Below, piece after piece: positions 1,338 through 17,150 of a stretch of DNA of 17,150 nucleotides. Within the stretch, counting starts at the first letter, position 1. Each line of letters starts with the position of its first letter. A program made the position numbers and the translations under genes. The notes under the pieces were generated by a model. It was given only the letters and a program-made list of their open reading frames with translations, was not told the origin of the DNA and made no database searches. Source of the DNA: an uncultured Prevotella sp. (GTDB lineage Bacteria > Bacteroidota > Bacteroidia > Bacteroidales > Bacteroidaceae); NCBI GenBank assembly GCA_934202525.1, contig CAKPYB010000054.1, positions 1 through 17,150 on the forward strand. Direction: 5' to 3'.

Positions 1338-1373
1338 CCGCCCGATAGCGACAATGCTATCGGGCGGATTTGT
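1338..1373 (+). terminator. terminator of the toxin-antitoxin-like operon
   Basis: A perfect 12-bp G+C-rich stem (1338-1349 with 1356-1367) encloses a 6-base loop and is followed by ATTTGTT, a modest T stretch. It begins 22 bases after the acetyltransferase stop codon. Confidence 0.85.
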
Positions 1374-1477: not shown

Positions 1478-2716
1478 TTATTTAGCTTTCTTCGAAAGTC
1501 TCACCATCAATACACCATGAGCAGGAATGGTTGCCTTGGTATTCTGAGCAGTAGTACCAATATCTTTATGTTTCCAAAGATCCCTGATAACATATTCATT
1601 GGCATGAATGTTCACCTCATTGGCAAAATAGATGGTCTGGGCTCTCCAGTTATAGTCCAGCTTCCAAGGAAAATCGGTACGGTTCAGGAAGCAGACTGCC
1701 AGTTCGCCATTACTCAGAGGCTTTGCCCAGATTTCCTTCTCTCCCATATCCATGAATCGGCGTCCCTGCTCGCCCATAGGGTCCTGGTCAACGGCAATCA
1801 CTTCCTTGTTGGTCAGTATCTCATGGGTATCCTTATCCATCTTGGTCAAGTCGTTGCCGGCCATCAGCGGAGCTGCCAGCATACACCACATAGAGAAATG
1901 AGTAATATACTCATCCTTGGTCATACCGCCATTACCCACTTCCAGCATCTCGGCATCATTCCAATGACCTGGCCCGGCATACGGATAAAGATCAGCCATC
2001 TTGTCGATGACGTTGAGTACTCCTACGCCACCCCAGTCGAAGAGACATTGGTAGCAATCTCTGATATCGGCAGTAACGCGCCACAGATGTCCGATACCCT
2101 TACCCCATTTCCAAGGTTCATGCTCGCCCCATTCGCAAATACTGAGAATCATAGGTCTTCCCGACTCCTTGATTGCATCGCTCATAGTAGCATAAGCAGC
2201 TTGCGCATTCTGTCCCTCATCAGAGCACCAGTCATACTTCAAGTAATCTACACCCCATTTGGCATACATCAAAGCATCCTGAAACTGATGACCACGGCTA
2301 CCAGGGCGACCTTGACAGGTGTAGCTTCCGGCACAGGAATAAAGTCCGAACTTCAAACCCTTGCTATGAATATAATCAGCCAGGTATTTCATTCCGTGAG
2401 GAAAGCGGTCAGGATCTGCCTGGATGAAGCCAAGCGAGTCGCGTTCTACCTGCCAGCAGTCATCAATAACAACATACTGGTATCCCGCATCCTTCATACC
2501 AGTCTCCACCATTTTATCCGCCATATCCATAATCAGCTTCTCGCTGACATTACAGCCAAACTTATTCCATGAGTTCCATCCCATAGGAGGAGTTTGGGCC
2601 TGAGCCAGATAAGCAGAATCAGAAACTTCCTTTGGCTTACCAAAGAACATCTGGCCATTTGCCGGCTGCGCCATAGCAATCGCTAATGACGCAGCCAATA
2701 AATACTGAAACTTCAA
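1478..2716 (-). CDS. GH27 alpha-galactosidase / beta-L-arabinopyranosidase-type enzyme
   Basis: The 412-residue secreted glycoside hydrolase has a type I signal peptide (about 1-21, cut near ANG-Q), so it is probably periplasmic. The GH27 barrel begins with TPPMGWNSWNKFGC (42-55). Sugar-binding Asp85-Asp86 lie in VIDDCW, and the nucleophile is Asp162 in LKYDWC (159-164). The acid/base is Asp217 in WRVTAD, matching Asp170 and Asp231 of human alpha-galactosidase A. A C-terminal beta-sandwich follows from about 320. All catalytic residues are present and the length is normal. GH27 enzymes remove terminal alpha-D-galactose, and some members remove the stereochemically similar beta-L-arabinopyranose; sequence alone does not decide. 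It is the last gene of the susC operon, 26 bp after the HELGH lipoprotein gene. Confidence 0.95.
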   Translation of the reverse strand: MKFQYLLAASLAIAMAQPANGQMFFGKPKEVSDSAYLAQAQTPPMGWNSWNKFGCNVSEKLIMDMADKMVETGMKDAGYQYVVIDDCWQVERDSLGFIQADPDRFPHGMKYLADYIHSKGLKFGLYSCAGSYTCQGRPGSRGHQFQDALMYAKWGVDYLKYDWCSDEGQNAQAAYATMSDAIKESGRPMILSICEWGEHEPWKWGKGIGHLWRVTADIRDCYQCLFDWGGVGVLNVIDKMADLYPYAGPGHWNDAEMLEVGNGGMTKDEYITHFSMWCMLAAPLMAGNDLTKMDKDTHEILTNKEVIAVDQDPMGEQGRRFMDMGEKEIWAKPLSNGELAVCFLNRTDFPWKLDYNWRAQTIYFANEVNIHANEYVIRDLWKHKDIGTTAQNTKATIPAHGVLMVRLSKKAK

Positions 2717-2742
2717 AATAATAAAAATTAATAAAGTTATAC

Positions 2743-4113
2743 CTAAATCAACTTTGTACCATTAAACTTCACTTGATAAGGCCATTGTGCCAATGGCAAC
2801 TGAGCCAAACTCCAGTGTCCATCCTTTGGACCAGCCGTAACTACAAGCCACAAATGAGCCAATTGCTCATTTTTAGGCAACTCAAATGAAACAGAAGCAT
2901 TACGGTTATCAAAGTCTGCAGTTCCTATTTCACCATAGACAGACTTACCCGACTCTGTTACGCCGACAAATCCAAAACGGTAACTACCACACCACCACCA
3001 ATCACAAGTGTAATTAGGATCACCCATGATGTTGTTGAAACTTACAGATACAGTAGAACCTGCGGCTGGAACTTCTAATTTCAAAGCATTAAAGCCATAA
3101 TTTTCAGGACAGTGGCTTGGATCTACCTGTAACCAACCATCACCAATCTCATTCATATACTCCTTAGCACTAGGCAAAGAGTTGGCATACTTGCGGGTTA
3201 CATCACGCACACGGTCGAAATCAAAGTTTACCAAACGAGCATAACAATCATACATCTCATCAAGGAACTGCTGCTGAGATGTTCCTGTCACATTCTGGTA
3301 TACAACAACTGGATCCTGGTACTCTTGAGCAGCCTTCCAAAGTTTCGCCATAATATCTTTACCATGCTTTTGACTCCAATACTCTAATACATATGGAGAA
3401 TGATAGATATTATCGCCATGCAAGAAAGCTTTGTGAGTCAATCCCTTGAAAGCATCCCAATGGTAAGTTTCATCATCTATCCAGTTTGGATTAATCTGCC
3501 AAAGCATCCATTGTGAGGTCATCTCATAGATACCACCAAACGTACTATCGAAACCATGTGCTCCATCAGCCTGCAATTGCAACTGGAAGCTATGCCCCAA
3601 CTCATGGGCAACAGTATTGAGTTTTGGATCTTTCAGTCGGTTAGGAGCTGCCCAAAAAGCTCCTATTGTATTATCATAAGTACCACCATACGCAGTACCA
3701 TCCAAAGAATACTGCAGCATCACCATCATTCGATACTTGTCAGCCTTAGAACCTTCAGTATGGAAGCCAAGGTCATCACGATAGAACTTATAAAATTTCT
3801 CCAACTGAGTTTTGAGATTTTCCAAGTCTACACTCATATCTGTACCTTCCAAAGAAGGTGGAGATGCTAAGTCCTTGCCAAATCCGCTCTCCCAAAAAAT
3901 GGCGAGATTATCAGTATAAGCGGCACGGTCATAACAATACTGGAAAGTTTCATTACGCCAATCTTGACCAGAGAATTCTCTTGGACGATACAATGATTTG
4001 CCGTCTGGGATAGGATAAGTTACTGTATAAGGGTCGTGCTCAGTATAATCAGTACATGAGGCCATTCCCAAGAGTAAGGCAAAAGCCCCCAATATATATT
4101 TATTTTTTTTCAT
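2743..4113 (-). CDS. lipoprotein with zinc-peptidase-like HELGH motif (DUF6055-like)
   Basis: This 456-residue protein has a lipoprotein signal ending LLGMASC, with lipidated Cys20 followed by acidic residues (TDYTEHD). It is likely anchored to the outer membrane and perhaps exposed at the surface. The centre carries NTVAHELGHSFQ (167-178). His170, Glu171 and His174 form an HExxH motif, and Glu197 in GGIYEMTSQW is a good candidate for the third zinc ligand of a gluzincin-type peptidase. The C-terminal part, from about 335 onward (VPAAGSTVSVSFN and after), looks like a beta-sandwich. I think it resembles the DUF6055 family, but could not check. The gene occupies the slot after susD where SusE/SusF-type glycan-binding lipoproteins usually sit. 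Peptidase activity is inferred; it may be a binding protein that kept the fold. Confidence 0.75.
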   Translation of the reverse strand: MKKNKYILGAFALLLGMASCTDYTEHDPYTVTYPIPDGKSLYRPREFSGQDWRNETFQYCYDRAAYTDNLAIFWESGFGKDLASPPSLEGTDMSVDLENLKTQLEKFYKFYRDDLGFHTEGSKADKYRMMVMLQYSLDGTAYGGTYDNTIGAFWAAPNRLKDPKLNTVAHELGHSFQLQLQADGAHGFDSTFGGIYEMTSQWMLWQINPNWIDDETYHWDAFKGLTHKAFLHGDNIYHSPYVLEYWSQKHGKDIMAKLWKAAQEYQDPVVVYQNVTGTSQQQFLDEMYDCYARLVNFDFDRVRDVTRKYANSLPSAKEYMNEIGDGWLQVDPSHCPENYGFNALKLEVPAAGSTVSVSFNNIMGDPNYTCDWWWCGSYRFGFVGVTESGKSVYGEIGTADFDNRNASVSFELPKNEQLAHLWLVVTAGPKDGHWSLAQLPLAQWPYQVKFNGTKLI

Positions 4114-4142
4114 AAGTATTCATTTTAATATATTGTTTTATC

Positions 4143-4178
4143 GGGAAGGCATCTTGTCGTTTGCCAAGAAGCCTTCCC
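4143..4178 (-). promoter_or_regulatory. intercistronic hairpin downstream of susD-like gene
   Basis: GGGAAGGC (4143-4150) pairs with GCCTTCCC (4171-4178), and TCTTG with CAAGA inside it, giving a 13-bp stem with one A/A mismatch and an 8-base loop. On the minus strand it starts 12 bases after the susD-like stop and is followed by CGATAAAA, without a T tract. It is therefore more likely an mRNA-stabilizing or partial-termination element, keeping susC/susD transcripts above the downstream genes, than a full terminator. Confidence 0.65.
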
Positions 4179-4189
4179 TTTCTATCTCT

Positions 4190-5884
4190 TTACTCATAAG
4201 GAGCTCCATCTATCAAATTAGAACGACGTAACTCATAACGAGGAACAGGCATCCAATAGTGTGCCCCAGCAGGAGCTTCACCATTAAATATACGATTGGC
4301 TACCACATTACCGGTCTGATATTCCTTGTGTCCATCTTTGTATTTATAAATGATGACTCCCGTAACCGGCTTACTATAGCACTCTTCCATCTTCTTCCAA
4401 CGGCGAAGATCAAACCAATGCTGACCTTCAAACACGAGTTCTATCTGACGCTCATAATAATAAGCATCCCAAGCTTGCTCTACATTTGCAGCTGTGGCAG
4501 CAGGAAGAAGTGCACGTGTACGCACCTTATTAATATAAGTCATCGCATCATCGATATTGCCCAACTGAAGTTCGCACTCCGCATAGTTGAGATAAATTTC
4601 AGCCAAGCGAATGAAGAACCAAGGCGTAACATGCTGGGTTGTGCCGTAGTTGTCGTATGAAGGATCCAAGAACTTACGCATAGAATAACCAGTATTGCTG
4701 GCATTCCACCACGATTCACCCTGATTACTATCCTTACCAGTTACAACACCATCCTCAGCCGGAATGAAGGTTTCCACTTCACGGGCAGAGTTGCCATATC
4801 CCCATTTATCACCATCTAAGATAAATGCTGCATTGAAACGGATTTCACGACCACCCCATGGATAAGAGGTATAACGGTCTTGCAGAACAGGCTTGGTACC
4901 ATCAGCCATTTGGAACTTATCTACTATTTCCTGGCTAGGGTCAAAGTTTCCCCAACCTTCAAAACCATTTCCACTGCCACAAGGAGCTTGGAATATATAA
5001 GAATTATTCTCTCCTGCACCATATTTCGGATCAAAGAGTTTCTCAAAGATAACCTCAGGATTTGTTGGGTCCAAGAACAAGGCACCATATTCCTCACTGT
5101 TACTTACCGATTTAAGAGAATATACTCCCAAATCCATGACTGCCTTAGCTGCATCAGCTGCAGCTTGCCATTTTTCACGTGAAGGAGTACCGAAGAGCGG
5201 ACTTGCCTTATAGAGCAGAATTCTTGACTTCAAAGCCAAGGCTGCTCCCTTGGTAGCGCGTCCCAACTCAGAATCATCATATTTTTCGGGTAAGAGAGTT
5301 GCAGCCTCATCCAAATCCTTACAGATAAAATCAGCAACCTCATCCAAATCTGCACGTTTCAACTCAAATTTGTCATTGAGTTGGAAAGTCTTGTCAACCA
5401 ATGGTACACGACCATAGAGACTATAGAGCAAATGATAGTTCCAAGCACGAAGGAAGAGTGCCTGTCCTTTTTGGCAATTGCGCTCCGCCTCATCACCAGG
5501 CACATTATCAATTTTCTCCAACATAAGGTTCAAACTCTTGATATAGCCATAAATTGTGCCCCAAGCATCACCATTGGTCTTATCCCAACCAAAGCTATAG
5601 GTATCACAGTTAAGAAGACCAGCGGTAACCGTTTCTGAACCATAAAGGTGCTTTTGGAACACTTCTTCTGTATAATTTGAATATCGAGTACCCTTCATGT
5701 TTTCTGCCTCAAGATTGGCATACTGAGCATTCAGATAGATTTTTGACAGAGCCAAGTCACCCCACACAGCATCGTCGGAGTAGCTATTGAGCGGGCTCTG
5801 ATCAAGTAAGCCGTCGTCACAACTAGTTGTGAGCGAAAGCGTCATTGCTGCGAAAGCAATCGACATGATATATTTTGTTCTCAT
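4190..5884 (-). CDS. SusD-like surface glycan-binding lipoprotein
   Basis: The 564-residue SusD/RagB-family protein has a lipoprotein signal ending LSLTTSC. Lipidated Cys22 is followed by Asp-Asp, an acidic stretch typical of surface-exposed Bacteroidota lipoproteins. The early motif GLLDQSP and the helical TPR-like segments (FLRAWNYHLLYSLYGRVPLV near 145-164; LAEIYLNYAECELQLG near 430-445) are family hallmarks. So are the C-terminal FEGQHWFDLRRW and YWMPVPRYELRRS. SusD proteins form the lid on the SusC transporter and capture oligosaccharide or glycopeptide ligands. The gene starts 18 bp after the susC-like stop and is certainly co-transcribed with it. Ligand specificity cannot be read from the sequence. 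Confidence 0.97.
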   Translation of the reverse strand: MRTKYIMSIAFAAMTLSLTTSCDDGLLDQSPLNSYSDDAVWGDLALSKIYLNAQYANLEAENMKGTRYSNYTEEVFQKHLYGSETVTAGLLNCDTYSFGWDKTNGDAWGTIYGYIKSLNLMLEKIDNVPGDEAERNCQKGQALFLRAWNYHLLYSLYGRVPLVDKTFQLNDKFELKRADLDEVADFICKDLDEAATLLPEKYDDSELGRATKGAALALKSRILLYKASPLFGTPSREKWQAAADAAKAVMDLGVYSLKSVSNSEEYGALFLDPTNPEVIFEKLFDPKYGAGENNSYIFQAPCGSGNGFEGWGNFDPSQEIVDKFQMADGTKPVLQDRYTSYPWGGREIRFNAAFILDGDKWGYGNSAREVETFIPAEDGVVTGKDSNQGESWWNASNTGYSMRKFLDPSYDNYGTTQHVTPWFFIRLAEIYLNYAECELQLGNIDDAMTYINKVRTRALLPAATAANVEQAWDAYYYERQIELVFEGQHWFDLRRWKKMEECYSKPVTGVIIYKYKDGHKEYQTGNVVANRIFNGEAPAGAHYWMPVPRYELRRSNLIDGAPYE

Positions 5885-5902
5885 TGTATGATCATTTATT
5901 TG

Positions 5903-8900
5903 TTAGAATGTGATGTTTGTACCTATGGTAACCATGCGCTGCAATGGATATCCAAGAATACCATTGGAGTTGATCAAGTAGCCATCATCATTGTAAGAAG
6001 AACCGATTTCAGGATCACAAACCTTCATTTTGTCGATAGTGAAGAGATTATTTCCATTGATATATACACGGAACTTCTCGATACCAATCTTTTGAGTGAT
6101 GCTCTTAGGTATGGTATAACCCAATTCGATAGACTTCAAGCGAAGGAAGGCTGCATTACGTAACCACCAGTCGGAAGCTGGACCATTCCAAGTGTCTCCA
6201 TATGTCTGCTTGATAAAGGCCTTTGGCCATCGAGCCTTCATATTTTCCTCAGCGGTATTGTCAGCGCGCCAACGTCCCTCATAGAAATCAGTAATCATAT
6301 TCATTGTTGGCTGAACAAGTTGCACAGCCTCAGCCTGTCCCTGGAAGAAAACATTCAGGTCGATACCCTTCCAGCTACCGTTTAAAGTCAATCCATACAG
6401 AATCTTAGGCGTAGCCGATTTATTGATTCGGACGGCATCATCCCATGTAATTTTACCATCACCATTGGTGTCTTGATAAATCAAATCGCCAGGCTTGGCA
6501 TTATCCAGGTGAGGAGTGTTATCCACCTGTTCCTGAGTCTGATAGATGCCCAAAGCATGATAAAGTACAAGTCCATCAATAGGATGGTTGGTTGTGCGCT
6601 GCCAGTCTGGGGTACTAGCTGCCTCGTCCATATATTTCACTTTGTTCTCGGCATAAGTAAAGTTACCAGTAACACTCCACTCAAAATCGCCCTTGCGATC
6701 ACGATAGGTAGCCACAAGTTCTATACCTGAGTTGTTCACCTTGCCCAAGTTTTCATCTGGTAATACCAATCCAGAATATGATGGAATAGAAGCATTACGC
6801 CTAATCAAAATATCACGACGGCGAGACTGGAACCAGTCGATATCCAATGAAAATTTGTTATTAAGGAATGTAGAGCTAATACCCAAGTTGAGCGTATTGG
6901 CTGTTTCCCAAGTCACCAATGGATTGGCTGTTCTTGTCAGATAGAATCCTTTGTTAATGGATCCTTTCTCTCCTGCTCCAAAGTAAGCACCTGTTTGTGT
7001 AAACTGGTAAGTTGAAAGGTACTGATACTTAGAGATATTATCATTACCCATCTGTCCCCAAGAACCACGAATCTTCAAGAATTCCACCACATTCTTCAAT
7101 GGTTTGAAGAATGGCTCATCAGAAATAACCCAACCTGCAGAGAATGAAGGGAATGTACCCCAACGATGACCTGGAGCAAAATTCATAGAACCATCCACAC
7201 GCACCGTAACCTCGAAAAGATACTTATCCATATAAGAATAATTGATACGTCCGAAGTAATTCATACGAGTGGTAAGGTCAGAATATCCACCATTATCCTT
7301 ATCAGCAGGCACGTCACTACCAGCAAAAATATCCATCAACTTATTTGAGAGGAAGTTTGTACGATAAGCATTCATGGTGTGATACTTGTACTTGCTCTGC
7401 TCATAAGCCACGAAAGCCCCCACCTTATGCTTTTCAGCAAAGGTTCGGTTATAACCCAAACGACCGTTCAATGTAATAGTATAATAGTAAGAACTCCAAT
7501 CGTTCAGACTTATTTTACTGGTATCATTACGGCGATTGTTATACTCTTGCTTGGCGTTATCATATTCGTAGAGATCGTAAGGCTGATTAATTTGTTTACC
7601 ATTCTGTTGAGTATAGTCTAAACCAGCATATCCCTCCGCATACAGACCTTTAGTAATCAAGTCAAGATCAACATGCAACTTTGGCTTAGCATTAAAGATC
7701 AGATTCTTGGAGTTGTTGGAACCAGGAGCACTCGACACCATGACTGCAGCATTGTTAGTCAGTCCATCATAACCCGTACGTGGAAGTCCATTAGGGAAAT
7801 AAGGTGCACTACCAGGGAAAGTACTCATCAAATAAGAGAAGAGATAAGGGGTGGAATAAATACCACGCTTACGCTCCTCCTGACGGAAATTCAAGTCAAG
7901 ACTTAGCTTTACTCTCTTATTCAGCTTTGCATCCAAATTAGAAGCAAACTGATACTGCTTATAGCCATGGTCAGAATTCTTATAGATAGCATTCTGATTC
8001 ATATACTGGGTTGAGAGATAATAGTTTACCTTGTCTGAACCACCTGAGATAGAGAGGCTATGTTCAGTTTTGGTTGTCCAATCCTTTGCCACTTCGCCCC
8101 ACCAGTCTGTATTTGGATAGTTGACTGGATCATCACCTGTACGATAATGTTCCAAAGCCTCAGGAGAATAAGTAAGACCGGCCTGGCCATGACGTTCGTC
8201 AGCATCATACTCATTCACGTAGGTAGCATACTGATATGAATTAAGCATCTTAGGAATACGGGTAGGCTGAGTGAAAGTAAGACTACCATTATATTGTACT
8301 CGTGTACGTCCACTGCTACCACGCTTGGTAGTTACCAGAATAACACCATTAGCCGCACGTGCACCATAAATAGCAGCAGAAGCATCCTTCAAAACAGAAA
8401 TACTCTCAATATCTTCAGGATTCAAACGGCTAAAGCTACGACCAGCAACACCATCCACTACTATCAGCGGAGAGGTATCACCCAGAGTTCCCTTACCACG
8501 TATGAGGATAGAAGCCTCATCGGCACCTGGTTCACCACTACGGTTGTTGGCTATGATACCAGCAGTTTTTCCAGCCAAAGTATTAGCCACATTTGTAGCT
8601 GCCACTTTCTGGAGATCGTCACCCGAAATCTGGGAAACTGAGCCAGTAAGAGTTGCTTTTTTCTGTGTACCATAACCCACGACTACAAGCTCATCCAAGA
8701 GTTTATTGTCTGACTGAAGTATAATCTTACCACCCTTAGCAGTAGTAACGCTCTTATATCCAATATAGGATATAACTACGGGAACCTTACCACCTTTTTT
8801 TAATTGCAGAACATAGTTACCATCTAAATTGGTAACCGTTCCATTAGAAGAACCCTGTTCTACGACGCTGGCACCTATAATAGGTTCACCCTGTTCATCA

Positions 8901-9079
8901 ACAACCACACCTTTTATGGTGGTACCATTCTGCTGAACAATTTGCACAGAAGGGTTTGACAAGGTCTCACTTGCTGCTAGAGTAGGTAATGCCCCCCCAC
9001 ATGCAAGGACCAAACACGCGATGGCTTTTACATAAGCTTGGCTATGTACAAAGCCTGAAATGTTTTGTGTCTGTCTCAT
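5903..9079 (-). CDS. SusC-like TonB-dependent outer-membrane transporter
   Basis: The 1058-residue SusC/RagA-family importer has an N-terminal signal region with a hydrophobic core at about 18-35. A carboxypeptidase-regulatory-like domain follows at about 52-125 (IKGVVVDEQGEPIIGASV, SYIGYKS). The TonB-box/linker region contains LDELVVVGYGTQKKATLTG (128-146). The plug domain at about 140-254 has IRGKGTLG, PLIVVDGV and the highly conserved SVLKDASAAIYGARAANGVI. The beta-barrel ends in GTNITF with the expected terminal Phe. It moves glycan fragments across the outer membrane using TonB energy. It is the first gene of a four-gene operon, and a strong operator/promoter region lies 48-137 bp upstream. 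The length and all landmarks are normal. Confidence 0.97.
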   Translation of the reverse strand: MRQTQNISGFVHSQAYVKAIACLVLACGGALPTLAASETLSNPSVQIVQQNGTTIKGVVVDEQGEPIIGASVVEQGSSNGTVTNLDGNYVLQLKKGGKVPVVISYIGYKSVTTAKGGKIILQSDNKLLDELVVVGYGTQKKATLTGSVSQISGDDLQKVAATNVANTLAGKTAGIIANNRSGEPGADEASILIRGKGTLGDTSPLIVVDGVAGRSFSRLNPEDIESISVLKDASAAIYGARAANGVILVTTKRGSSGRTRVQYNGSLTFTQPTRIPKMLNSYQYATYVNEYDADERHGQAGLTYSPEALEHYRTGDDPVNYPNTDWWGEVAKDWTTKTEHSLSISGGSDKVNYYLSTQYMNQNAIYKNSDHGYKQYQFASNLDAKLNKRVKLSLDLNFRQEERKRGIYSTPYLFSYLMSTFPGSAPYFPNGLPRTGYDGLTNNAAVMVSSAPGSNNSKNLIFNAKPKLHVDLDLITKGLYAEGYAGLDYTQQNGKQINQPYDLYEYDNAKQEYNNRRNDTSKISLNDWSSYYYTITLNGRLGYNRTFAEKHKVGAFVAYEQSKYKYHTMNAYRTNFLSNKLMDIFAGSDVPADKDNGGYSDLTTRMNYFGRINYSYMDKYLFEVTVRVDGSMNFAPGHRWGTFPSFSAGWVISDEPFFKPLKNVVEFLKIRGSWGQMGNDNISKYQYLSTYQFTQTGAYFGAGEKGSINKGFYLTRTANPLVTWETANTLNLGISSTFLNNKFSLDIDWFQSRRRDILIRRNASIPSYSGLVLPDENLGKVNNSGIELVATYRDRKGDFEWSVTGNFTYAENKVKYMDEAASTPDWQRTTNHPIDGLVLYHALGIYQTQEQVDNTPHLDNAKPGDLIYQDTNGDGKITWDDAVRINKSATPKILYGLTLNGSWKGIDLNVFFQGQAEAVQLVQPTMNMITDFYEGRWRADNTAEENMKARWPKAFIKQTYGDTWNGPASDWWLRNAAFLRLKSIELGYTIPKSITQKIGIEKFRVYINGNNLFTIDKMKVCDPEIGSSYNDDGYLINSNGILGYPLQRMVTIGTNITF

Positions 9080-9126
9080 TTCTATTGTTTGTTAGGTTGA
9101 TAATTGTTTTTTAAAAATTTCAATTG

Positions 9127-9134
9127 CAAAGTAA
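9127..9134 (-). promoter_or_regulatory. -7 element of the susC promoter
   Basis: On the minus strand the sequence reads GTTACTTTGCAA, a near match to the TAnnTTTG element, 47 bases before the susC-like ATG. No good -33 element lies at the right distance, as expected for an activator-dependent PUL promoter. The same GTTAYTTTGCAA sequence sits at the same distance from the same operator in front of the GH146 gene, which supports the call. Confidence 0.65.
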
Positions 9135-9162
9135 CATAATATTTATCATATCATGCCACAAA

Positions 9163-9217
9163 ATCGTCCAAAAGAGTGAAAATATCGTCTAATTTTGATA
9201 TTTTAGACGATATTTTC
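9163..9217. promoter_or_regulatory. susC operator: ATCGTC direct repeat plus inverted arm
   Basis: Half-site A ATCGTCC begins at 9163 and half-site B begins ATCGTC at 9184, exactly 21 bp (two helical turns) later. B extended (9179-9192) forms a perfect 14-bp inverted repeat with arm C (9203-9216), with a 10-bp spacer. Half-site A ends nearest the -7 element, with 27 bases between it and GTTACTTTG. The same layout recurs at 12246-12301. The hairpin could also contribute to ending the GH146 transcript, but its recurrence at a site with no gene end argues for an operator. Confidence 0.75.
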
Positions 9218-9267
9218 GTCTTTTAACCTATATTTCTATTCAGAAATTGCCTGTAACGGCTTATTAT

Positions 9268-12168
9268 TTATTGTTTCATCGCCTTCTTCAATTTTCCCAC
9301 AGCGGCATGAATCATGTCGTGGGTTCCACTTCCGTCGGTTACGTATTTCTGAACCATTCTGCCATAACTGATAGCTTCCTTGAGTTCCTCGCTGGTGTTG
9401 TCATCCGGCCAACCGACACGGCGAAGCAGACCGGAAAGTTCTCGGAGGTCTTCCATCTCGGCAAGGTTGCCAGGGCGCATCGTATTGATGGCACGGTTCA
9501 GAATGGCAGTAGTGCCTTCCAGTTCATCCTGGGTCACCTTCTTCTTGCCCTTTGCCACCAGCTCCTGTGCCTGAGCCATCACCTTCTGCATGCGCTCATA
9601 GCCGAACGGCGCCCATGGAGCATACTCCGGAACCTTCTGAGAGAGGGCATTCCACTTCTCCTGGTCAGCCTTGCGCTCTGCGGCAAGATTCAGGAGAGAA
9701 TTCAGTTCGGTGAAATCTATCTTCACCTTCTTGCTCTTCTTGCTCTTGGCATCGGTCAGGTTGATGCGGTAGTAGTGGGTGCTGTTGGCGTTGCGATAAT
9801 AGTCTGGCTGGAATTCCTTACCATCCAATTTCAGGGTAAGGAGATTGGCTCCTGCACCTGTAGTCACGCCGTTCGATTCGCCCACGGTAATCTTGCTCAA
9901 TCGGGAGTCGATGTTCAGCGTAGCCTGGTTCCAAGTCTGTGCGCCTGTACCTGCCATAGCTAATGGTCCGTACATCAGGGTTCCTACCCAGGATGTCTTC
10001 AGCGGAGTACCGTCCATACTTGCCACATCACTCGAAAGCTTGTCGGCACCATACTCGATATGCTTGCTGAATGGCATGTCGATTTCTACGACATCGCCCG
10101 CCTTCCAGTGCTTCTGCTCCAGTTCTACATAGGTGCTAGGCTGATAGCTCTTTGCCACTTCCTTGCCGTTCACCTTGATGGAGAAACCTTGCGTAGCCCA
10201 GTATGGTACACGGAGTTTCAGGGTGAAATCGCCCTCGCCTTCCGTTATCTTGATGGCTGAATGCTGTGCCGGCCACAGGCAATCCTGCTTGATGGTCACG
10301 CCCTTCTCCTTCCAGTGGAGAGTGGTTGGCATATAGAGACCTACCCAGAGGGTATGATCGTTGGCAAAATAAGCCGACTGCTGGTACTTGGTATGGTTTT
10401 CAGAACCTGTACCGCCACAGCAGGTGCTCTGAGGAGTCTCGTTGCCGAATGGCTTGGTGGCATTCAATCCTACTGCATACTGGTAGCAGGTCTGATACTG
10501 GTCCGGATTGAGCGAACCGATAATCTGATTGTACAGCGTGCGCTCGATATAATCGAGATACTGCGCATTATTTGGGTTATAACAGTTCAGATCCTTGCTC
10601 AGCTTGACGAGGTTATACGCACAGCAGGTTTCGTTGATATCCGGATAAGCCTGCGATTCGCCTTCCTGCAGTCCGTTGGTTGCCATACTCAGAATCTGTG
10701 TGTATGGCTGACGGAACATCTCTCCGTTTCCAACACCACCCATCGCATACATGTATCTGCCCTGCACCAGTCTCCAGAAGTTCTGTGCCAGATTGTAATA
10801 GTATGGCTTCTGATTGCTCTTATAACTGCGCAACGCTCCGATAATCATCGGAATATGCTGATTGGCATGGCGGGTACGGATGTCGTCGATGTTCTTGCTC
10901 AACGGATCGTAGAACTTAGGCGCATCGAAACAGTTGGCCGCCTCAAGGAGCTTCGCCTTCTCATCCGGATTGGAAACCATCTCAGAAAGACGGGAGAGCG
11001 ATTCGCTCATACCTCCCACCTCACCGGCGATATACATGTCCCACATCTCGTAACGGTTGCCTGGCTTGGCTCTGCGTTCATCCTGGGTGCCGTCCTGCTT
11101 CACGTAAGTGCGGTAGTGCATGCGGTTCCATACCCAGAGTCCCATATCCTTGGCAATGAGGAGAGCCTTGTCGCAGATTTCCTTATCATCAAAGTAGGTG
11201 GCGATGTCTATCAGACCGGCAAGCTGCTTATGTACACTATAATAAGGTGCCCAAACCCAATCGGAGTTGTTGTAGGCACGATACATCTCAATAAGAGCAC
11301 AATGCTGAGCCGGAATGGCATTGATATAGCCGTAACCATACAGTTCAGGGTGCTTCTTATATTCATCAAAAGCAGCCCAGGTACCCTTCATCTCTCTGAG
11401 TTCTGCCTCAGGAGCGAAATCACGAGCCTCCCAGTTGCGCTTCAGATCCTTATTATATACGAAGGTTTTCTCCTGACACTCTCGCAACTCATTCACCATA
11501 CGGGTGATGTTCTTGCGGAGGATTGCCTTCTGCTCAGGATTGGTTGCCACGGCGTATGCCTGTGCGATTGCCGACATATAGTGACCTGATCCATGCCCCT
11601 TGAGTTTGGTATCCGGCGAATCCCAGCCATCACTCTTGGTATAACCCTCGGTACTGAGTCCGTAGGTATCGCGATAGTTGTAGAGCTGCTGGGTAACATC
11701 CCAGGAACAGATCTCGCGGATAGCTTCGTCGCGGTTGTGGGTGAGTCGGTTGTCACCATCAATGCTCACATCAGCGAGCGAGAAGGTATGAGCCACTTCC
11801 TTTTCAGGAGTCTGATAACCTCCAGTCACCACCTTGATTTGTGCCTTGACAGGATAACCATTGTCGGTAGTCTCATCACCAATCACAAAACCACCAATCT
11901 CATATTGGCTTCCGGCAGGATGCTTCTGCACATCAGCCTCAGCCTGCTCATCAGCAAGCGGAGAATTAGCCCAGCGCACCTGGCGATACTCTGAATAACC
12001 ATCAGAATAGGTTACCCACACGAGATTAGGAAGTCGGGGAACTGTGCCCACAGGACAATCCACTGATATTACCTCCACCTTAGAGATGGTGCGATAAACC
12101 GTGGCTGCTGTTGTCATTCCCGGCAAACAAGCTACTCCTATTAATAATGTGAACTGCTTTGAATTCAT
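9268..12168 (-). CDS. GH146/GH127-type beta-L-arabinofuranosidase with N-terminal Ig-like domain
   Basis: The 966-residue protein has a signal peptide (about 1-22) and an Ig-like domain (about 26-115, with LVWVTYSDGYSEYRQVRW). A DUF1680-type alpha/alpha barrel then runs from about 128 to 610. The zinc-thiolate active site is intact: INETCC (511-516) supplies Glu513 and Cys515, and STCCGGTGSENH (581-592) supplies Cys583 and Cys584. Cys583 corresponds to the catalytic cysteine of the family. GWDSPDTKLKGHGSGHYMSA (181-200) is also characteristic. Beta-sandwich modules (about 610-820) and a helical tail (about 850-966) follow. The family releases beta-L-arabinofuranose, for example from Hyp-linked arabino-oligosaccharides or from arabinan and RG-II branches. 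GH146 rather than GH127 is favoured by the architecture but not proven. It is transcribed alone from its own operator and divergent to GH97; no clear terminator separates it from susC. Confidence 0.92.
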   Translation of the reverse strand: MNSKQFTLLIGVACLPGMTTAATVYRTISKVEVISVDCPVGTVPRLPNLVWVTYSDGYSEYRQVRWANSPLADEQAEADVQKHPAGSQYEIGGFVIGDETTDNGYPVKAQIKVVTGGYQTPEKEVAHTFSLADVSIDGDNRLTHNRDEAIREICSWDVTQQLYNYRDTYGLSTEGYTKSDGWDSPDTKLKGHGSGHYMSAIAQAYAVATNPEQKAILRKNITRMVNELRECQEKTFVYNKDLKRNWEARDFAPEAELREMKGTWAAFDEYKKHPELYGYGYINAIPAQHCALIEMYRAYNNSDWVWAPYYSVHKQLAGLIDIATYFDDKEICDKALLIAKDMGLWVWNRMHYRTYVKQDGTQDERRAKPGNRYEMWDMYIAGEVGGMSESLSRLSEMVSNPDEKAKLLEAANCFDAPKFYDPLSKNIDDIRTRHANQHIPMIIGALRSYKSNQKPYYYNLAQNFWRLVQGRYMYAMGGVGNGEMFRQPYTQILSMATNGLQEGESQAYPDINETCCAYNLVKLSKDLNCYNPNNAQYLDYIERTLYNQIIGSLNPDQYQTCYQYAVGLNATKPFGNETPQSTCCGGTGSENHTKYQQSAYFANDHTLWVGLYMPTTLHWKEKGVTIKQDCLWPAQHSAIKITEGEGDFTLKLRVPYWATQGFSIKVNGKEVAKSYQPSTYVELEQKHWKAGDVVEIDMPFSKHIEYGADKLSSDVASMDGTPLKTSWVGTLMYGPLAMAGTGAQTWNQATLNIDSRLSKITVGESNGVTTGAGANLLTLKLDGKEFQPDYYRNANSTHYYRINLTDAKSKKSKKVKIDFTELNSLLNLAAERKADQEKWNALSQKVPEYAPWAPFGYERMQKVMAQAQELVAKGKKKVTQDELEGTTAILNRAINTMRPGNLAEMEDLRELSGLLRRVGWPDDNTSEELKEAISYGRMVQKYVTDGSGTHDMIHAAVGKLKKAMKQ

Positions 12169-12209
12169 ATCTGCTAGGTTTAAAATTTATACGTTTTTGT
12201 TTCTGCTTG

Positions 12210-12217
12210 CAAAATAA
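12210..12217 (-). promoter_or_regulatory. -7 element of the GH146-type gene promoter
   Basis: The minus strand reads GTTATTTTGCAA, differing by one base from the susC element GTTACTTTGCAA. The leader to the ATG at 12168 is about 41 bases, similar to the susC leader. It lies 27 bases from half-site A of the adjacent operator, exactly as at susC. Confidence 0.65.
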
Positions 12218-12245
12218 CAGAAAAAAACAACGAAGTCCTAAAATT

Positions 12246-12301
12246 ATCGTACACAAAGATGCAACTATCGTCTAACAGGGGGCTTTTAATACGATATTTT
12301 C
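12246..12301. promoter_or_regulatory. divergent operator between GH146-type and GH97 genes
   Basis: Half-site A ATCGTAC starts at 12246, and half-site B TATCGTCTAA (12266-12275) places its ATCGTC at 12267, again 21 bp away. An inverted arm with ACGATATTTTC is at 12291-12301. B and the last 11 bases of the inverted arm are identical to those upstream of susC. The spacing from B to the arm is one base longer and the inner arm is imperfect. It can serve the leftward GH146 promoter with the same geometry as susC, and the rightward GH97 operon from the other side. Confidence 0.72.
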
Positions 12302-12344
12302 ATCATTTTGGACTTTCTTTGCATTACATAAACAATTCTATTCG

Positions 12345-12352
12345 TAAATTTG
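12345..12352 (+). promoter_or_regulatory. -7 element of the GH97-GH43-GH127 operon
   Basis: TAAATTTG matches TAnnTTTG exactly and would give a leader of about 85 bases. A TTTG at 12318-12321 is upstream at a slightly long spacing. An alternative element, TTTCTTTG at 12314-12321, would lie closer to the operator. The choice between them is not certain. Confidence 0.55.
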
Positions 12353-12445
12353 CAGCAGAAATAAAAACTTGTGGTAATCTGGGTATACAGGCATTACCAT
12401 CAAGCGAACAACAAAACGGACAAAACAACAATAAACCTAGAAGTT

Positions 12446-14431
12446 ATGGTTAAGAAACTCTTTTTCATCGCCACCTTATTATATATAGGGGCAACAGTAT
12501 CGGCAGAGAACTATCTGGTGAAATCACCAGATGGTAAAATCGTGGCAGAACTCAACACCAACAAGTATCTCTCTCTTCAATTTAAATACAACGGCTCCAT
12601 TCTTTTACAGGAGTCTTCAATAGGTGTAACGCTGAACGATGGAATGGACATGGGTAAGAACCCGAAGGTAGCAAGCCACAAGCTTAGCAACCATAAGGAG
12701 ACCATCCATGCCCCATTCTATCGTCAGCAAAACTTTGAAACAGGTTATCAGGAACTGAATCTGAAACTGAAGAACGGTTTCGGCATCATCCTGAGAGCTT
12801 ACGATGAGGGAGTGGCTTACCGATTCTACACCCAGCGAAAGGGCAAGACCATCATTCTGAATGAAACCGCCGCCTACAAGTTTGGCAAGGACAAAAAGGC
12901 ATGGTTGCCTTATACCACGACACCTGAAAAGCCTTTTGCCATGGCTTTCCAGAATATCTATCACGAAACACGGCTCGATACCGCTAAGCAGGATTTAGCT
13001 TTTTTGCCGGCTACCGTAGATTGCGGCAAGGCAAAGGTTACCATCCTAGAGAGCGACTTGGAGAAGTATCCGGGCATGTGGCTGAAGGCTAACAGCAGCG
13101 AACAGGATAAAGAGAAGGGAATCCTGAGAGCCGCCTTCGCTCCTTATCCTAAGGAGATGGCTTACTACCCTTGGCGACACATGAGCCACGTAAAGAGTAC
13201 CTGCGATTATATCGCTACCAGCATCGGCAAGCGCAATTATCCTTGGCGCATCTTCGCCATCACAGAGCACGATACACAGATGCCAACCAACAACCTGGTG
13301 TATGCACTCGCTGCTCCCAACAAGATAGGCGATACCTCCTGGATCAAACCGGGAAAGGTGGCTTGGGACTGGTGGAACGACTGGAATCTGAAAGGTGTGG
13401 ATTTCAAGGCAGGCATCAATTTTGAAACTTACAAGTATTATATAGATTTTGCTCATAATCACGGTTTGGAATACATCGTCCTTGACGAAGGATGGTACAA
13501 CTCGAAAGAGGGAAGCATTCTGAAACCGATAGACGATATCCAATTGCCTAAGCTCATTGAATATGGTAAGAGCAAGGGCGTGGACATCGTACTCTGGGCT
13601 GTGTTCAACGTGATGGACGAGAACCTGGAAACCATCTGCAAGACCTATGCCGATATGGGCATCAAGGGATTCAAGGTGGATTTCATGGACCGCGACGACC
13701 AGACAGCCATCGAAATGGTGGAACGTCTGGCTGCCTGCACCGCCAAGCATCATCTCATCCTCGACCTGCACGGTATCTACAAGCCACACGGCTTGAACCG
13801 CACCTACCCTAACATCCTCAACTACGAGAGTGTCTTCGGTATGGAAGAATGCCGCTGGACGGAGGCTAAGAATGACATGCCGCTCTACGATGTCACCTTC
13901 CCATACATCCGAATGATGGCAGGACAGGTGGATTTCACACCGGGAGCGATGAGAAACGGAACCCGCGATAACTGGAAGGCAATCTACACCAAACCGATTT
14001 CGATGGGTACCCGATGCCACCAGGCTGCCTGCTACATCGTACAGGACAGTCCGTTTACGATGCTCGCCGACACTCCTACCAACTATGAGGCGGATGAGCC
14101 ATACACCCGATATATCGCTTCGCTGCCAGTAGTCTTCGACAAGACCATCGTGCCACAGGGCGAAATCGGAAAGTATATCGTTACCGCCCGAAAGAAGGGC
14201 AACGACTGGTATGTAGGCGGTCAGAGCAACTGGGATGAGCGCACACTCACCCTGAAGTTCGATTTCCTCGCAGATGGCGATTACGAGGCAATCGTACTGA
14301 AAGACGGCATCAATGCCAACCACGATGCCGAGGATTACAAGATAGAGAAATCCGTCATCAATCAGAAATCGGAAATGAAGATTCATCTTGCTTCTGGCGG
14401 TGGATTCGTCATCAAGGTTATCAAGAAATAA
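12446..14431 (+). CDS. GH97 retaining alpha-galactosidase-type glycoside hydrolase
   Basis: The 661-residue enzyme begins at MVKKLFFIATLLYIGATVSA. I chose this start because it gives a clean signal peptide cut before ENYLV; an in-frame ATG at 12371 would add 25 polar residues ahead of it. An N-terminal beta-supersandwich (about 25-260) is followed by the catalytic barrel, with VAWDWWNDW near 305-313 and VLDEGWYNSKEG. FKVDFMDRDDQ carries the probable nucleophile Asp412. NYESVFGMEECRW carries the probable acid/base Glu467, close to Asp415 and Glu470 reported for BT1871. This places it in the retaining branch, unlike the inverting glucosidase SusB. Known retaining members are alpha-galactosidases or beta-L-arabinopyranosidases. 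It heads a plus-strand operon, 28 bp before GH43. Confidence 0.92.
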   Translation: MVKKLFFIATLLYIGATVSAENYLVKSPDGKIVAELNTNKYLSLQFKYNGSILLQESSIGVTLNDGMDMGKNPKVASHKLSNHKETIHAPFYRQQNFETGYQELNLKLKNGFGIILRAYDEGVAYRFYTQRKGKTIILNETAAYKFGKDKKAWLPYTTTPEKPFAMAFQNIYHETRLDTAKQDLAFLPATVDCGKAKVTILESDLEKYPGMWLKANSSEQDKEKGILRAAFAPYPKEMAYYPWRHMSHVKSTCDYIATSIGKRNYPWRIFAITEHDTQMPTNNLVYALAAPNKIGDTSWIKPGKVAWDWWNDWNLKGVDFKAGINFETYKYYIDFAHNHGLEYIVLDEGWYNSKEGSILKPIDDIQLPKLIEYGKSKGVDIVLWAVFNVMDENLETICKTYADMGIKGFKVDFMDRDDQTAIEMVERLAACTAKHHLILDLHGIYKPHGLNRTYPNILNYESVFGMEECRWTEAKNDMPLYDVTFPYIRMMAGQVDFTPGAMRNGTRDNWKAIYTKPISMGTRCHQAACYIVQDSPFTMLADTPTNYEADEPYTRYIASLPVVFDKTIVPQGEIGKYIVTARKKGNDWYVGGQSNWDERTLTLKFDFLADGDYEAIVLKDGINANHDAEDYKIEKSVINQKSEMKIHLASGGGFVIKVIKK

Positions 14432-14459
14432 AAAAGCATTTAGAAAAAAAGAAGTTCAT

Positions 14460-16904
14460 ATGGTTAGTAAAAATATAATTGTAACACTATTCGTAACAGC
14501 AGCTGCGGCAGCGCCTGAGACAGGTGCTGCCCAGAAAGCTGCTTACAACACTCCGGGAGCCGGCAACCCTATCCTGCCTGGCTATTTTGCCGACCCAACC
14601 ATCAAGAAGTTTGGTGACACCTATTATATATATGCTACTACCGATGGTAGCGGAGCCGGTTTCGGACCGGCACAGCTCTGGTGCAGCAAGGATTTCAAGA
14701 ACTGGACCCTGATGCCGATGAACTGGCCAGACAGCCACTGGATCTGGGCACCGGATGTGATGAAGAACGAAGCCGACGGCAAGTATTACTACCTCTACTG
14801 CCAGCCTTGCAAGCTCCATCTGGGTGTGGGCGATACACCTCGCGGTCCTTGGAAGAATGTGCTGGGCGAAAGCGAAGCCGTACTGGTGGAAGATAGATTC
14901 GTAAAGAATGCCATCACCCTCGATGGTCAGACCTTCCGAGATGATGATGGTTCGGTCTATATGTATTGGGGCACCTGGGGCATCTACAAAGGCTTCGGTT
15001 GCGGAGCAGGTAAGCTGAATCCTGATATGAAGTCATTCAGTGAAACCAAGCTCATCCCTAACACCGAGGTTACTCACTTCTTCGAGGCTCCTTTCGTCTT
15101 CAAGCGCAACGGCATCTACTACTTCCTCTACTCCTGCGAACATTGCGAAGATGCCAGTTACCGTGTGGATTACGCCACAGCCAAGAGTCCGCTCGGTCCT
15201 TATACCTACCACGGCACTATCCTCAAGACCAATGCCGATGGAACCGTTCATGGTCCGGGACACAACAGCGTGCTGCAGGAAGGCGACAACTACTACATCG
15301 TATATCATCGCCACGACAATCCGCATTCCAACCGTGGATTCCATCGTCAGGTGGCTATCGATAAACTCGAATTCAATGCAGACGGTACCATCAAGGAGGT
15401 CATTCCAACCCACGAAGGTCTCGATCTGAAACCGGAGATGAAGGTAGCAAAGAACCTCGCCTTCGGAGCCAAGGTTACCGCCTCTTCCTACTACGACAAC
15501 GATTTCCGTCCGGAATATGCAGTAGATGACAACAACGGAACACTCTGGCGCCCTCGCACCACCGGTCCGGCTTGGATCCAGATTGACCTGGGCAAGAAGC
15601 AGAGCATCAAGAGCATCTGGACTCAGTTTGAATACGGAACCCAGTTCTATCAGTATCTCATTGAGACATCGAATGACGGTAAGCACTGGCAGACCTTCTC
15701 CGACAAGCGACAGAACCGTCTGGCTGGTTCGCCGATGGTAGATTTCGGAAATGCCAAGGCACAGTACATCCGCCTCACCTATACTGGCGGACAGAAGAAT
15801 GGTTTCGGTGGCGCCATCTGGAACATCAAGGTTTACGGTTCCGTAGAAGATTCTGCCCCACAGCAGTGGCTCGGTCTGACAGCAGCCGATTTCGACGGCA
15901 CAACCTGGCATAACAACGAGGGAATGCTCGCCGGCAAGTTCTCACTCCTTCAGGGTACAGCACTCAGAGAGCGCATGGCTGCCAAAGATGCCATCACCCT
16001 GCAACCGGGTGCCCAGCTCGTGATGACTCATCCGCAGCTCGGCAAGGCACGCAAGCACACCCTCACCGCCCAGGCTTTCGACAACGGAAGCTGGCATCAG
16101 ATAGATGAAAACGATCCACGTCTGAATCTTTCTGAAGGAAAACTGGAAATCCGTGCAGGCGAAAAGCAATTTACCCTCACCAATCTCCGTTATTATAACT
16201 GGGAACAGGAGGCTGCAGAAAAGGCTTTCGATGCCCAGAGCAACATCGTGCGTGAGGCAATAGCCGATAAGAACAGTCAGGGACTGGTGGTAGATATCAG
16301 CGCTGATTACTACAACGAGGGCGATACCGTGCCTTACATCAAGAACGGCAGTCCGCTGGCTGTTCACCTCAAGGGTGAGTTCGAGACACAGCACGATACA
16401 GCAGCCATCATCAAGACCATAGAGGGCAAGAAGGCATTCACCTTTACCGGCAAGGAGAGTTACAGAAGCAACTTCATGCTCCCAGCCACCATCCGCGACA
16501 ACGCTCCATACACCATCGAGGCATGGATTCTGAATCCGGAGATTGCCGAGAATGAATGCGTAGCCGATTTCACTTCTTCGCACGATGAACTGGAGAAGCT
16601 GATGCTGGTAAACGGCACCGAACCACGCTGCGGTGTGATGAACCACTACGGATGGTACGAGGATGCCGGCTACAAGGAGATGAAGACCCTGGAAGGCAAG
16701 TGGCAGCACGTATATGTATGCTTCGACGGCAGAACCGAGAGCATCTACATCAACGACAAGCTCGTCAGCCAGAAAGATATCCAGCTTCTCGTCAAGCCAT
16801 CGCAGTTTATGCTTCTGGGCAAGAACGCCGAAAAGGCATGGCCTTTCTCAGGCTATCTGCACTCATTGAAACTCTGGGATGAATACATCCCGAAGAAGAA
16901 TTAA
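14460..16904 (+). CDS. GH43 glycosidase with CBM32-like and LamG-like modules
   Basis: The 814-residue protein is taken from the ATG at 14460, which gives the signal peptide MVSKNIIVTLFVTAAAAAPE; the longer in-frame start at 14388 lies inside GH97. The five-bladed GH43 domain spans about 33-320. The base is Asp45 in GYFADPT, the pKa-modulating residue Asp99 in IWAPDV, and the acid Glu209 in HFFEAPF. A discoidin/CBM32-like domain (about 331-461) starts NLAFGAKVTASSYYDNDF and ends WNIKVYG. An unassigned linker module (about 465-620) and a LamG/concanavalin-like domain (about 645-810, with YTIEAWILNPE) follow. The family is mainly alpha-L-arabinofuranosidases, with some beta-xylosidases and exo-beta-galactosidases. 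Arabinofuranosidase is favoured by the neighbours, but the subfamily is not determined. It is probably periplasmic. Confidence 0.9.
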   Translation: MVSKNIIVTLFVTAAAAAPETGAAQKAAYNTPGAGNPILPGYFADPTIKKFGDTYYIYATTDGSGAGFGPAQLWCSKDFKNWTLMPMNWPDSHWIWAPDVMKNEADGKYYYLYCQPCKLHLGVGDTPRGPWKNVLGESEAVLVEDRFVKNAITLDGQTFRDDDGSVYMYWGTWGIYKGFGCGAGKLNPDMKSFSETKLIPNTEVTHFFEAPFVFKRNGIYYFLYSCEHCEDASYRVDYATAKSPLGPYTYHGTILKTNADGTVHGPGHNSVLQEGDNYYIVYHRHDNPHSNRGFHRQVAIDKLEFNADGTIKEVIPTHEGLDLKPEMKVAKNLAFGAKVTASSYYDNDFRPEYAVDDNNGTLWRPRTTGPAWIQIDLGKKQSIKSIWTQFEYGTQFYQYLIETSNDGKHWQTFSDKRQNRLAGSPMVDFGNAKAQYIRLTYTGGQKNGFGGAIWNIKVYGSVEDSAPQQWLGLTAADFDGTTWHNNEGMLAGKFSLLQGTALRERMAAKDAITLQPGAQLVMTHPQLGKARKHTLTAQAFDNGSWHQIDENDPRLNLSEGKLEIRAGEKQFTLTNLRYYNWEQEAAEKAFDAQSNIVREAIADKNSQGLVVDISADYYNEGDTVPYIKNGSPLAVHLKGEFETQHDTAAIIKTIEGKKAFTFTGKESYRSNFMLPATIRDNAPYTIEAWILNPEIAENECVADFTSSHDELEKLMLVNGTEPRCGVMNHYGWYEDAGYKEMKTLEGKWQHVYVCFDGRTESIYINDKLVSQKDIQLLVKPSQFMLLGKNAEKAWPFSGYLHSLKLWDEYIPKKN

Positions 16905-16939
16905 GAATAAAAAAATAATAATCAAGAATACAGAATAGA

Positions 16940-16976
16940 GAACATTGAGCTTTACCAATCATAAAGTTCAATGTTC
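16940..16976 (+). promoter_or_regulatory. intercistronic hairpin between GH43 and the second beta-L-arabinofuranosidase-like gene
   Basis: GAACATTGAGCTTTA (16940-16954) pairs with TAAAGTTCAATGTTC (16962-16976), giving 15 bp with one G-U pair and a 7-base loop. It is followed by A-rich, not T-rich, sequence. It is therefore more likely an mRNA-processing or stability element inside the operon than a terminator. Confidence 0.6.
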
Positions 16977-16993
16977 AAAATTCAAAGTTCAAA
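16966..16993 (+). repeat. tandem heptamer repeat GTTCAAA x4
   Basis: Four consecutive 7-base units, GTTCAAT, GTTCAAA, ATTCAAA, GTTCAAA, end 9 bases before the next start codon. The first unit overlaps the right arm of the hairpin. Seven is not a multiple of three, but the array is outside the coding frame. Changes in copy number would alter leader length and hairpin spacing. Confidence 0.75.
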
Positions 16994-17002
16994 GTAAAAA
17001 AC

Positions 17003-17150
17003 ATGAAGAAGATTTTGATGACATCAGCCTTGGCAGCATTGGCATTGATGCCTGCTTCGGCACAGAAAGTGAGCAAGAGCTCGGGTGGTTATCCTATCAC
17101 TCCGGTGCCTTTCACATCAGTAAAGGTTTGGAACAATACGTTCTGGGGAC
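17003..17150 (+). CDS. N-terminus of a second GH127-like (DUF1680) beta-L-arabinofuranosidase
   Basis: The first 49 codons read MKKILMTSALAALALMPASA, a signal peptide cut at ASA-Q, and then a short linker and YPITPVPFTSVKVWNNTFWG. The pattern PVPFTxVxVxxxFWG is the usual opening of GH127-type DUF1680 proteins. The gene runs off the right edge of the window, so the active-site Glu/Cys motifs cannot be checked. An A-rich leader with the heptamer repeat precedes it, 98 bp after GH43 and in the same direction, so it probably belongs to the GH97-GH43 operon. Confidence 0.75.
   Translation, partial: MKKILMTSALAALALMPASAQKVSKSSGGYPITPVPFTSVKVWNNTFWG

Follow-up and report, generated by a model that had tools for sequence, protein, structure and literature searches.

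The stretch of DNA analysed here, 17,150 nt of contig CAKPYB010000054.1 (hereafter the window), carries a cluster of genes for glycan uptake and breakdown arranged in two divergent series (Table 1). The first, on the minus strand, comprises in gene order a DUF1680 enzyme, SusC, SusD, a DUF6055 lipoprotein and a GH27 enzyme; the second, on the plus strand, runs from GH97 through GH43 into another DUF1680 gene, of which the start is present, and the locus continues beyond the window end at position 17150. Same-strand intergenic gaps of 18–188 bases (18 between SusC and SusD) suit operons, and a terminator-like hairpin probably forms the left boundary, having the most G-C pairs among the listed terminator-like sites (22 in the window, mean of 14.0 in shuffles). 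Profile scans covered eight window genes and gave family-match scores that exclude chance; with SusC adjoining SusD and glycosidases in the same cluster, this is a polysaccharide utilization locus (PUL) of the Bacteroidota type. Pfam and NCBIfam matches confirm the GH27, GH97, GH43, SusC/SusD and HELGH lipoprotein genes named in an initial annotation of this DNA, whereas only one of its two DUF1680 genes is complete, the other being represented by 49 codons cut by the window end. Catalytic or zinc motifs were found in all five complete enzymes (GH27, GH97, GH43, DUF1680 and the peptidase); the residue roles given to them are partly our assumption and partly from the papers cited below.

Table 1. 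Features of the window and, in the last row, of two related loci (L119 and L120).
Feature	Position	Strand	Evidence
Terminator-like hairpin, 13-bp stem, on both strands	1338–1367		Consensus scan
GH27 enzyme of the alpha-galactosidase type, with a signal peptide (by eye)	1478–2716	-	PF16499, 248.8 bits
DUF6055 HELGH lipoprotein	2743–4113	-	PF19527, 414.2 bits; lipobox ...GMASC by eye
SusD lipoprotein	4190–5884	-	PF07980, 188.4 bits
SusC TonB-dependent importer	5903–9079	-	TIGR04056, 973.4 bits
DUF1680, GH146-like, 966 residues	9268–12168	-	PF07944, 170.7 bits
GH97 retaining alpha-galactosidase; frame open from 12371, start probably at 12446	12446–14431	+	NF053844
GH43 carrying F5/8C and LamG domains; frame open from 14388, start probably at 14460	14460–16904	+	PF04616, 170.4 bits
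Second DUF1680 (GH127-type by relatives), first 49 codons, cut by window end	17003–17149	+	Alignment to relatives
Metzincin-like lipoprotein	L119:7605–8747; L120:10979–12124	-; +	P0241–P0283

The DUF6055 lipoprotein is central to the interpretation of the locus, its relation to the peptidase Svx being the best evidence for it. Its match to PF19527 (gathering score 27) spans residues 37–455 of 456 and includes a zinc site made of HELGH (residues 170–174), 22 further residues and Glu197, i.e., HEXXHX22E, of which H170, E171, H174 and E197 are invariant in all 27 aligned members. PF19527 has been connected to peptidase family M106 (PMC11241649), and the same spacing is described for the exported peptidase Svx (PMC9266454), which is reported to cleave extensin, a glycosylated structural protein of plant cell walls, but neither mucin nor concanavalin A (PMC13164431). 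Consistently, the Svx model NF040510 matches the window protein over residues 97–299 (50.4 bits, E 1.4e-13) as well as 26 of the 27 aligned members, and judged by these profiles DUF6055 is a remote Svx homologue and not an Svx equivalog. No match was found among the PDB sequences. The C-terminus resembles CBM22/4/16 jelly rolls in a Foldseek search of the predicted model, where the scores were weak, and the statement on the fold hence rests on VIA-align. The protein is thus a putative gluzincin metallopeptidase with a C-terminal jelly roll, for which we propose a role as surface extensin glycopeptidase. DUF6055 is frequent: one search gave 2,137 proteins, and within a single bacterial family 163 of the 399 genomes sampled have it.

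The glycosidases could supply the matching sugar chemistry. The best PDB matches of GH27 are alpha-galactosidases (346 bits); the GH27 entry 3a21, which we take to be a beta-L-arabinopyranosidase, scores 249 bits. The motifs of the window enzyme include LKYDWC, WRVTADI, DDCW and CEWG, the last two presumably forming the GH27 pocket, and removal of serine-linked alpha-D-galactose is its proposed role. GH97 passes the cut-off of 800 of the NF053844 equivalog model 'retaining alpha-galactosidase' with 809.7 bits, and its catalytic Asp/Glu motifs VDFMDRDD and GMEEC are aligned with 3a24. For the complete DUF1680 enzyme, which has the Zn/Cys motifs NETCC and STCC, PDB matches were obtained with 5opj (BT0349-type GH146; 157 bits), the bifidobacterial 8k7y (126 bits) and GH127 chains (31–48 bits), and by these scores it is nearest to GH146. 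Members of this family, XeHypBA1 of Xanthomonas and Bll4HypBA1 of Bifidobacterium, are described as removing arabinofuranose (Araf) from Araf-beta1-hydroxyproline (PMC10850190), and in such hydroxyproline-arabinoside systems a GH43 is described as removing the alpha-1,3 Araf cap (PMC6085000). We propose the GH43 of the window as the alpha-L-arabinofuranosidase for this terminal residue. The 49-codon DUF1680 fragment has no Pfam match on its own; it aligns with complete GH127-type proteins of two relatives, L039 (59%) and L112 (67% over 30 residues), whose genes occupy the same place after GH43. The L039 protein has all three GH127 domains (catalytic, middle and C) and matches 6ex6 with 1128 bits.

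Relatives of the locus were collected by scanning one genome per species, which gave 335 DUF6055-encoding stretches, the best 80 of which were kept; open reading frames (ORFs) were grouped by clustering and glycosidase types found by tblastn. Recurrent neighbours are SusC/SusD, DUF1680 (28 loci, with a second cluster in 9), GH97 (22), GH43 (16 proteins), S9 peptidases of the dipeptidyl peptidase IV (DPP-IV) type (15), aminopeptidase P (7) and GH27 (5), and at least one of GH27, GH97, GH43 and the two DUF1680 types occurs in 43 of the 80 loci and in 29 of the 49 loci of at least 20.9 kb. A family of about 1,300 residues, which we take to be a hybrid regulator, occurs in 42 of the 80; one distant member (28% identical) was confirmed. 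A laboratory commensal, Bacteroides cellulosilyticus DSM 14838, is among the carriers of such a locus (L010). Proximity was then counted in 15 genomes picked by us from the 80 loci, which belong to related species, with two carriers being strains of one species, and are not independent trials. After removal of weak or second pieces (PF07944, 8 of 90 rows), rows below 62 bits (PF00930, 30 of 84) and rows below cut-off (PF05195, 1 of 19; PF10566, 8 of 140), 12 of the 15 genomes had DUF1680 no further than 20 kb from DUF6055; the same held for GH97 in 12 and for DPP-IV in 10. Compared with uniform placement, 25 of 82 DUF1680 copies (0.83 expected), 12 of 132 GH97 copies (1.32), 10 of 54 DPP-IV copies (0.68) and 2 of 18 AMP_N copies (0.23) lie near DUF6055. 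DPP-IV is also found within 5 kb of DUF1680 in 12 of the 15 genomes (12 of 54 copies; 0.60 expected).

The association is visible from the other end as well. In the 399 genomes, the window SusC has 10 matches of at least 60% identity (next best 46%) and the window GH27 has 9 of at least 70% (next best 63%); DUF6055 lies within 15 kb of six of the SusC and six of the GH27 orthologues, as against 0 of 20 SusC and 0 of 59 GH27 rows below these limits, two counts that may be too low, since they compare the top 30 SusC rows and top 68 GH27 rows of the listings with part of a DUF6055 listing that was itself cut short. As the link holds from both ends, albeit with related species entering either count, we rejected the option that DUF6055 is a bystander. 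In one relative (L001), the only clean case, a SusC-SusD-DUF6055-GH27 operon is flanked by housekeeping genes. Two sister genomes (L119 and L120) carry a SusC-SusD-GH27-DUF1680 operon that has no DUF6055 and instead contains a lipoprotein which is metzincin-like and belongs to an unrelated family. Of the 43 proteins found for this family, 42 have no Pfam domain; Pfam and NCBIfam gave only weak matches for the lipoprotein, while the metzincin-type motif HELGHxRGxxD is invariant in 19 aligned members and the predicted fold is adamalysin-like.

Five lines of evidence point to a protein backbone bearing plant Araf and alpha-galactose as target, namely the remote homology of DUF6055 to the extensin-cleaving Svx, the recurrence of DPP-IV beside DUF6055, DUF1680 and GH97 (with aminopeptidase P in a few loci), the operon standing between housekeeping genes, the occupation of a DUF6055-less operon by another metallopeptidase lipoprotein, and the lack of a galactanase in the eight scanned window genes together with the low endo-arabinanase score of GH43. 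We consider it likely that the locus is a PUL directed at hydroxyproline-rich plant glycoproteins of the extensin type, in which a surface peptidase instead of a glycanase would start the attack, followed by glycopeptide import and trimming; the target may be extensin or another such glycoprotein, e.g., solanaceous lectins. Uptake of these glycopeptides after backbone cleavage by the lipoprotein had been suggested by the initial annotation and gains support from the Svx homology, synteny and precedent. In this scheme, the DUF6055 zinc gluzincin would cut the glycosylated backbone at the cell surface, as its lipobox and relation to Svx suggest, and SusC/SusD would import the arabinosylated and galactosylated glycopeptides. 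In the periplasm, GH43 could take off terminal alpha-L-Araf, the two DUF1680 enzymes could strip beta-L-Araf down to hydroxyproline and GH27/GH97 could free alpha-D-galactose from serine; these family functions are known, and the linkages are those predicted here. In relatives, the neighbouring DPP-IV and, in some, aminopeptidase P may process the bared hydroxyproline/proline-rich peptides. X. euvesicatoria provides an independent case of hydroxyproline-arabinoside chemistry beside a proline peptidase, as we read the description of its xehypAA, which is adjoined by a prolyl oligopeptidase gene that is now a pseudogene (PMC6085000).

Extending this to the relatives, we lean slightly towards the view that such loci constitute a widespread peptidase-first PUL class for plant cell-wall glycoproteins, with DUF6055 and, in one lineage, the convergent metzincin-like family as glycan-tolerant extensin endopeptidases. 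Importer, peptidase and alpha-galactosidase would form the core, to which arabinofuranosidases and proline-specific peptidases would be added, and the bacteria would feed on the hydroxyproline-rich protein as well as on the sugars.

Several observations weigh against these assignments. The 50.4 bits of DUF6055 lie far below the curated NF040510 cut-off of 625, the LbH domain needed by Svx for extensin cleavage is absent (Pfam gives the DUF6055 match only), and of the 109 DUF6055 ORFs that the 80 loci contain, with uncertain start calls, only 50 pass a crude lipobox pattern. BT1003, a GH127/DUF1680 relative, is an aceric acid hydrolase, so that a DUF1680 domain is no proof of beta-Araf activity. 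GH43 was placed at family level, not in a subfamily, and neither of its nearest solved chains, 5msx and 3qz4, is named for alpha-1,3-Araf activity on Ara4-Hyp. The window shows no regulator, and none of its eight scanned genes is annotated as GH121 arabinobiosidase, the latter judged without a GH121-specific model and in a window ending inside the locus. In the relatives, none of the five glycosidase types was found in 37 of the 80 DUF6055 loci (20 of the 49 of at least 20.9 kb), partly due to contig ends; only 2 of the 15 genomes have AMP_N at a distance of up to 20 kb from DUF6055; and three Prevotella-genus loci (L111–L113) have no DPP-IV after GH127, a place where L003, L004, L009, L019, L039 and L124 carry one. 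One of the ten SusC orthologues (G001:C5, L121) is split and accompanied by no more than SusD, the four-gene set of L002 is followed by two transport genes, behind which lie a GH2 gene and a hybrid regulator, and the DUF1680 before SusC in L112 and L124 is GH127-type, in contrast to the GH146-like enzyme of the window. Finally, L119 and L120, the two analysed of three genomes of this kind (the third being G148), represent one lineage.

Among the alternative substrates, arabinogalactan protein (AGP) survives best, but is still unlikely. Here, DUF1680 and GH43 would trim Araf, GH27/GH97 would take beta-L-arabinopyranose or alpha-galactose caps and the peptidase would cut the AGP core. In line with this, 6ex6, to which the GH127-type protein of L039 is very near, is presumably BT3674 from an AGP locus, beta-L-arabinopyranosidase entries (4nx0) appear in the GH27 search, a GH97 beta-L-arabinopyranosidase exists, and in L002 the GH2 gene lies 1.9 kb past GH27. 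The GH146 enzyme Bll3HypBA1 is moreover described as acting on AGP and arabinan (PMC10850190). However, no galactanase (beta-1,3/1,6-galactan enzymes) is present among the eight scanned genes of the window, past which the locus runs, nor among the 25 Pfam families listed, of 73, for 52 unlabelled proteins from 24 related loci, and L001 keeps only GH27 and the peptidase. Improbable is also a pectic arabinan or rhamnogalacturonan-II (RG-II) with beta-L-Araf ends, DUF6055 being incidental. The GH146 enzyme BT0349 acts on arabinan-derived oligosaccharides, and the aceric acid hydrolase BT1003 is reportedly tied to RG-II breakdown. Yet GH43 reaches 32.9 bits with the endo-arabinanase model (cut-off 480), a peptidase and two alpha-galactosidases would have no evident role on arabinan, and DUF6055 is tied to the SusC and GH27 orthologues; S. 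copri DSM18205, not known to be the window's strain, is described as using a GH43_4/GH51 locus for arabinan (PMC11784079). The lack of a galactanase in the scanned window genes and the low GH43 score thus argue against the arabinan and arabinogalactan alternatives of the initial annotation. A host mucin-type glycoprotein, with GH27 as alpha-galactose or alpha-GalNAc enzyme beside a glycopeptidase, is very improbable: the architecture parallels PUL BT4240-50 with its surface M60-like peptidase and alpha-N-acetylgalactosaminidase (PMC11992087), but DUF1680 and GH43 indicate plant arabinofuranose, the homologue Svx reportedly does not cut mucin, and Xylanibacter ruminicola, Bacteroides reticulotermitis and B. 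luti are among the named carriers. On these grounds, arabinan, AGP, RG-II and mucin were each rejected as the main substrate. The habitats of the carriers are presumably rumen, termite and digester.

Further features were observed in and around these loci. A second DUF6055 form (L023:7743–9998, +; the one scanned) has the order BACON-DUF6055-DUF4859, and similar ORFs of 660–800 residues occur in other loci, often directly beside the short form, giving two related peptidases per locus. A CotH-kinase-domain protein (one scanned) directly precedes DUF6055 in L078 (8575–9933), with ORFs similarly placed in other loci; L053 has a neighbouring gene for an AXE1-type esterase; and L051 encodes, about 6 kb from a DUF6055 gene, a protein that combines an M64 (IgA peptidase) domain with fimbrillin-like and BspA leucine-rich repeat domains (16897–20391, +). 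In L002, the genes directly after the SusC-SusD-DUF6055-GH27 set, which encodes a zinc peptidase, are a zinc-uptake ZnuA and an ABC-transporter gene (13030–14674, +). L124 has a small HEFAH protein between GH97 and GH43 (6562–7227, -), a putative peptidase with sub-threshold ATLF and M90 metallopeptidase matches. In the left flank of the window, a 54-codon ORF (534–698, +) without Pfam or PADLOC match shares 4 bases with the beginning of a GNAT acetyltransferase gene (695–1315, +), an arrangement like that of GNAT toxin-antitoxin pairs, and four tandem 22-base units upstream of the pair (207–314) also form a 52-base inverted repeat. The closest DNA matches to the window show 70–74% identity (398 sampled genomes, genus of Prevotella sp. 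P3-122, L070), and the window is probably DNA of a gut bacterium. Copies of the DUF1680 gene at 98–99% were found in all 120 listed protein clusters (at least 120), which suggests an abundant source species, at a guess one from the Segatella copri group of the human gut.

Each of the ingredients is already known singly: PULs, DUF1680 enzymes, extensin peptidases and PULs that bear a peptidase. Among the Bacteroides, Segatella and PUL papers listed, with subscription journals largely outside, none showed a Bacteroidota locus for extensin or hydroxyproline-rich glycoproteins, which enter the gut with plant food. If true, our proposal would assign a function to DUF6055, a Pfam family of unknown function, connect the extensin peptidase of a plant pathogen with nutrition in commensals and name a second, unrelated peptidase family. 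DUF1680 and GH97 genes now read as arabinan or AGP enzymes could then be re-read, and the question would be testable with a handful of genes.

In comparison with known systems, the combination of DUF1680 (GH146/GH127) and GH43 with SusC/SusD resembles Bacteroides arabinan and AGP PULs. These, however, start with surface endo-glycanases and not with a peptidase. Svx of Pectobacterium atrosepticum is likewise described as an exported gluzincin with HEXXHX22E, matching residues 97–299, and extensin is the target shown for Svx and proposed for DUF6055 (PMC9266454; PMC13164431; PMC10815107). In contrast to Svx, DUF6055 is a lipoprotein encoded in a nutrient locus of the SusC/SusD kind, ends in a jelly roll where Svx has its LbH acyltransferase-like domain, and stays far under the Svx cut-off. 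With the HypBA1-HypBA2-HypAA systems of Bifidobacterium longum and Xanthomonas, as described (PMC6085000; PMC7263609), the locus shares a DUF1680 beta-L-arabinofuranosidase and GH43; it differs by TonB-dependent import, an endopeptidase and alpha-galactosidases, with no GH121 seen. Finally, the mucin PUL BT4240-50 of B. thetaiotaomicron is reported to combine a surface zinc peptidase, a SusD-like protein and core O-glycan glycosidases in a similar way (PMC11992087), there directed at mucin and GalNAc with an M60-like peptidase, here at plant Araf and galactose with DUF6055. We propose, from this comparison, that the locus could represent the plant counterpart of mucin-glycoprotein PULs.

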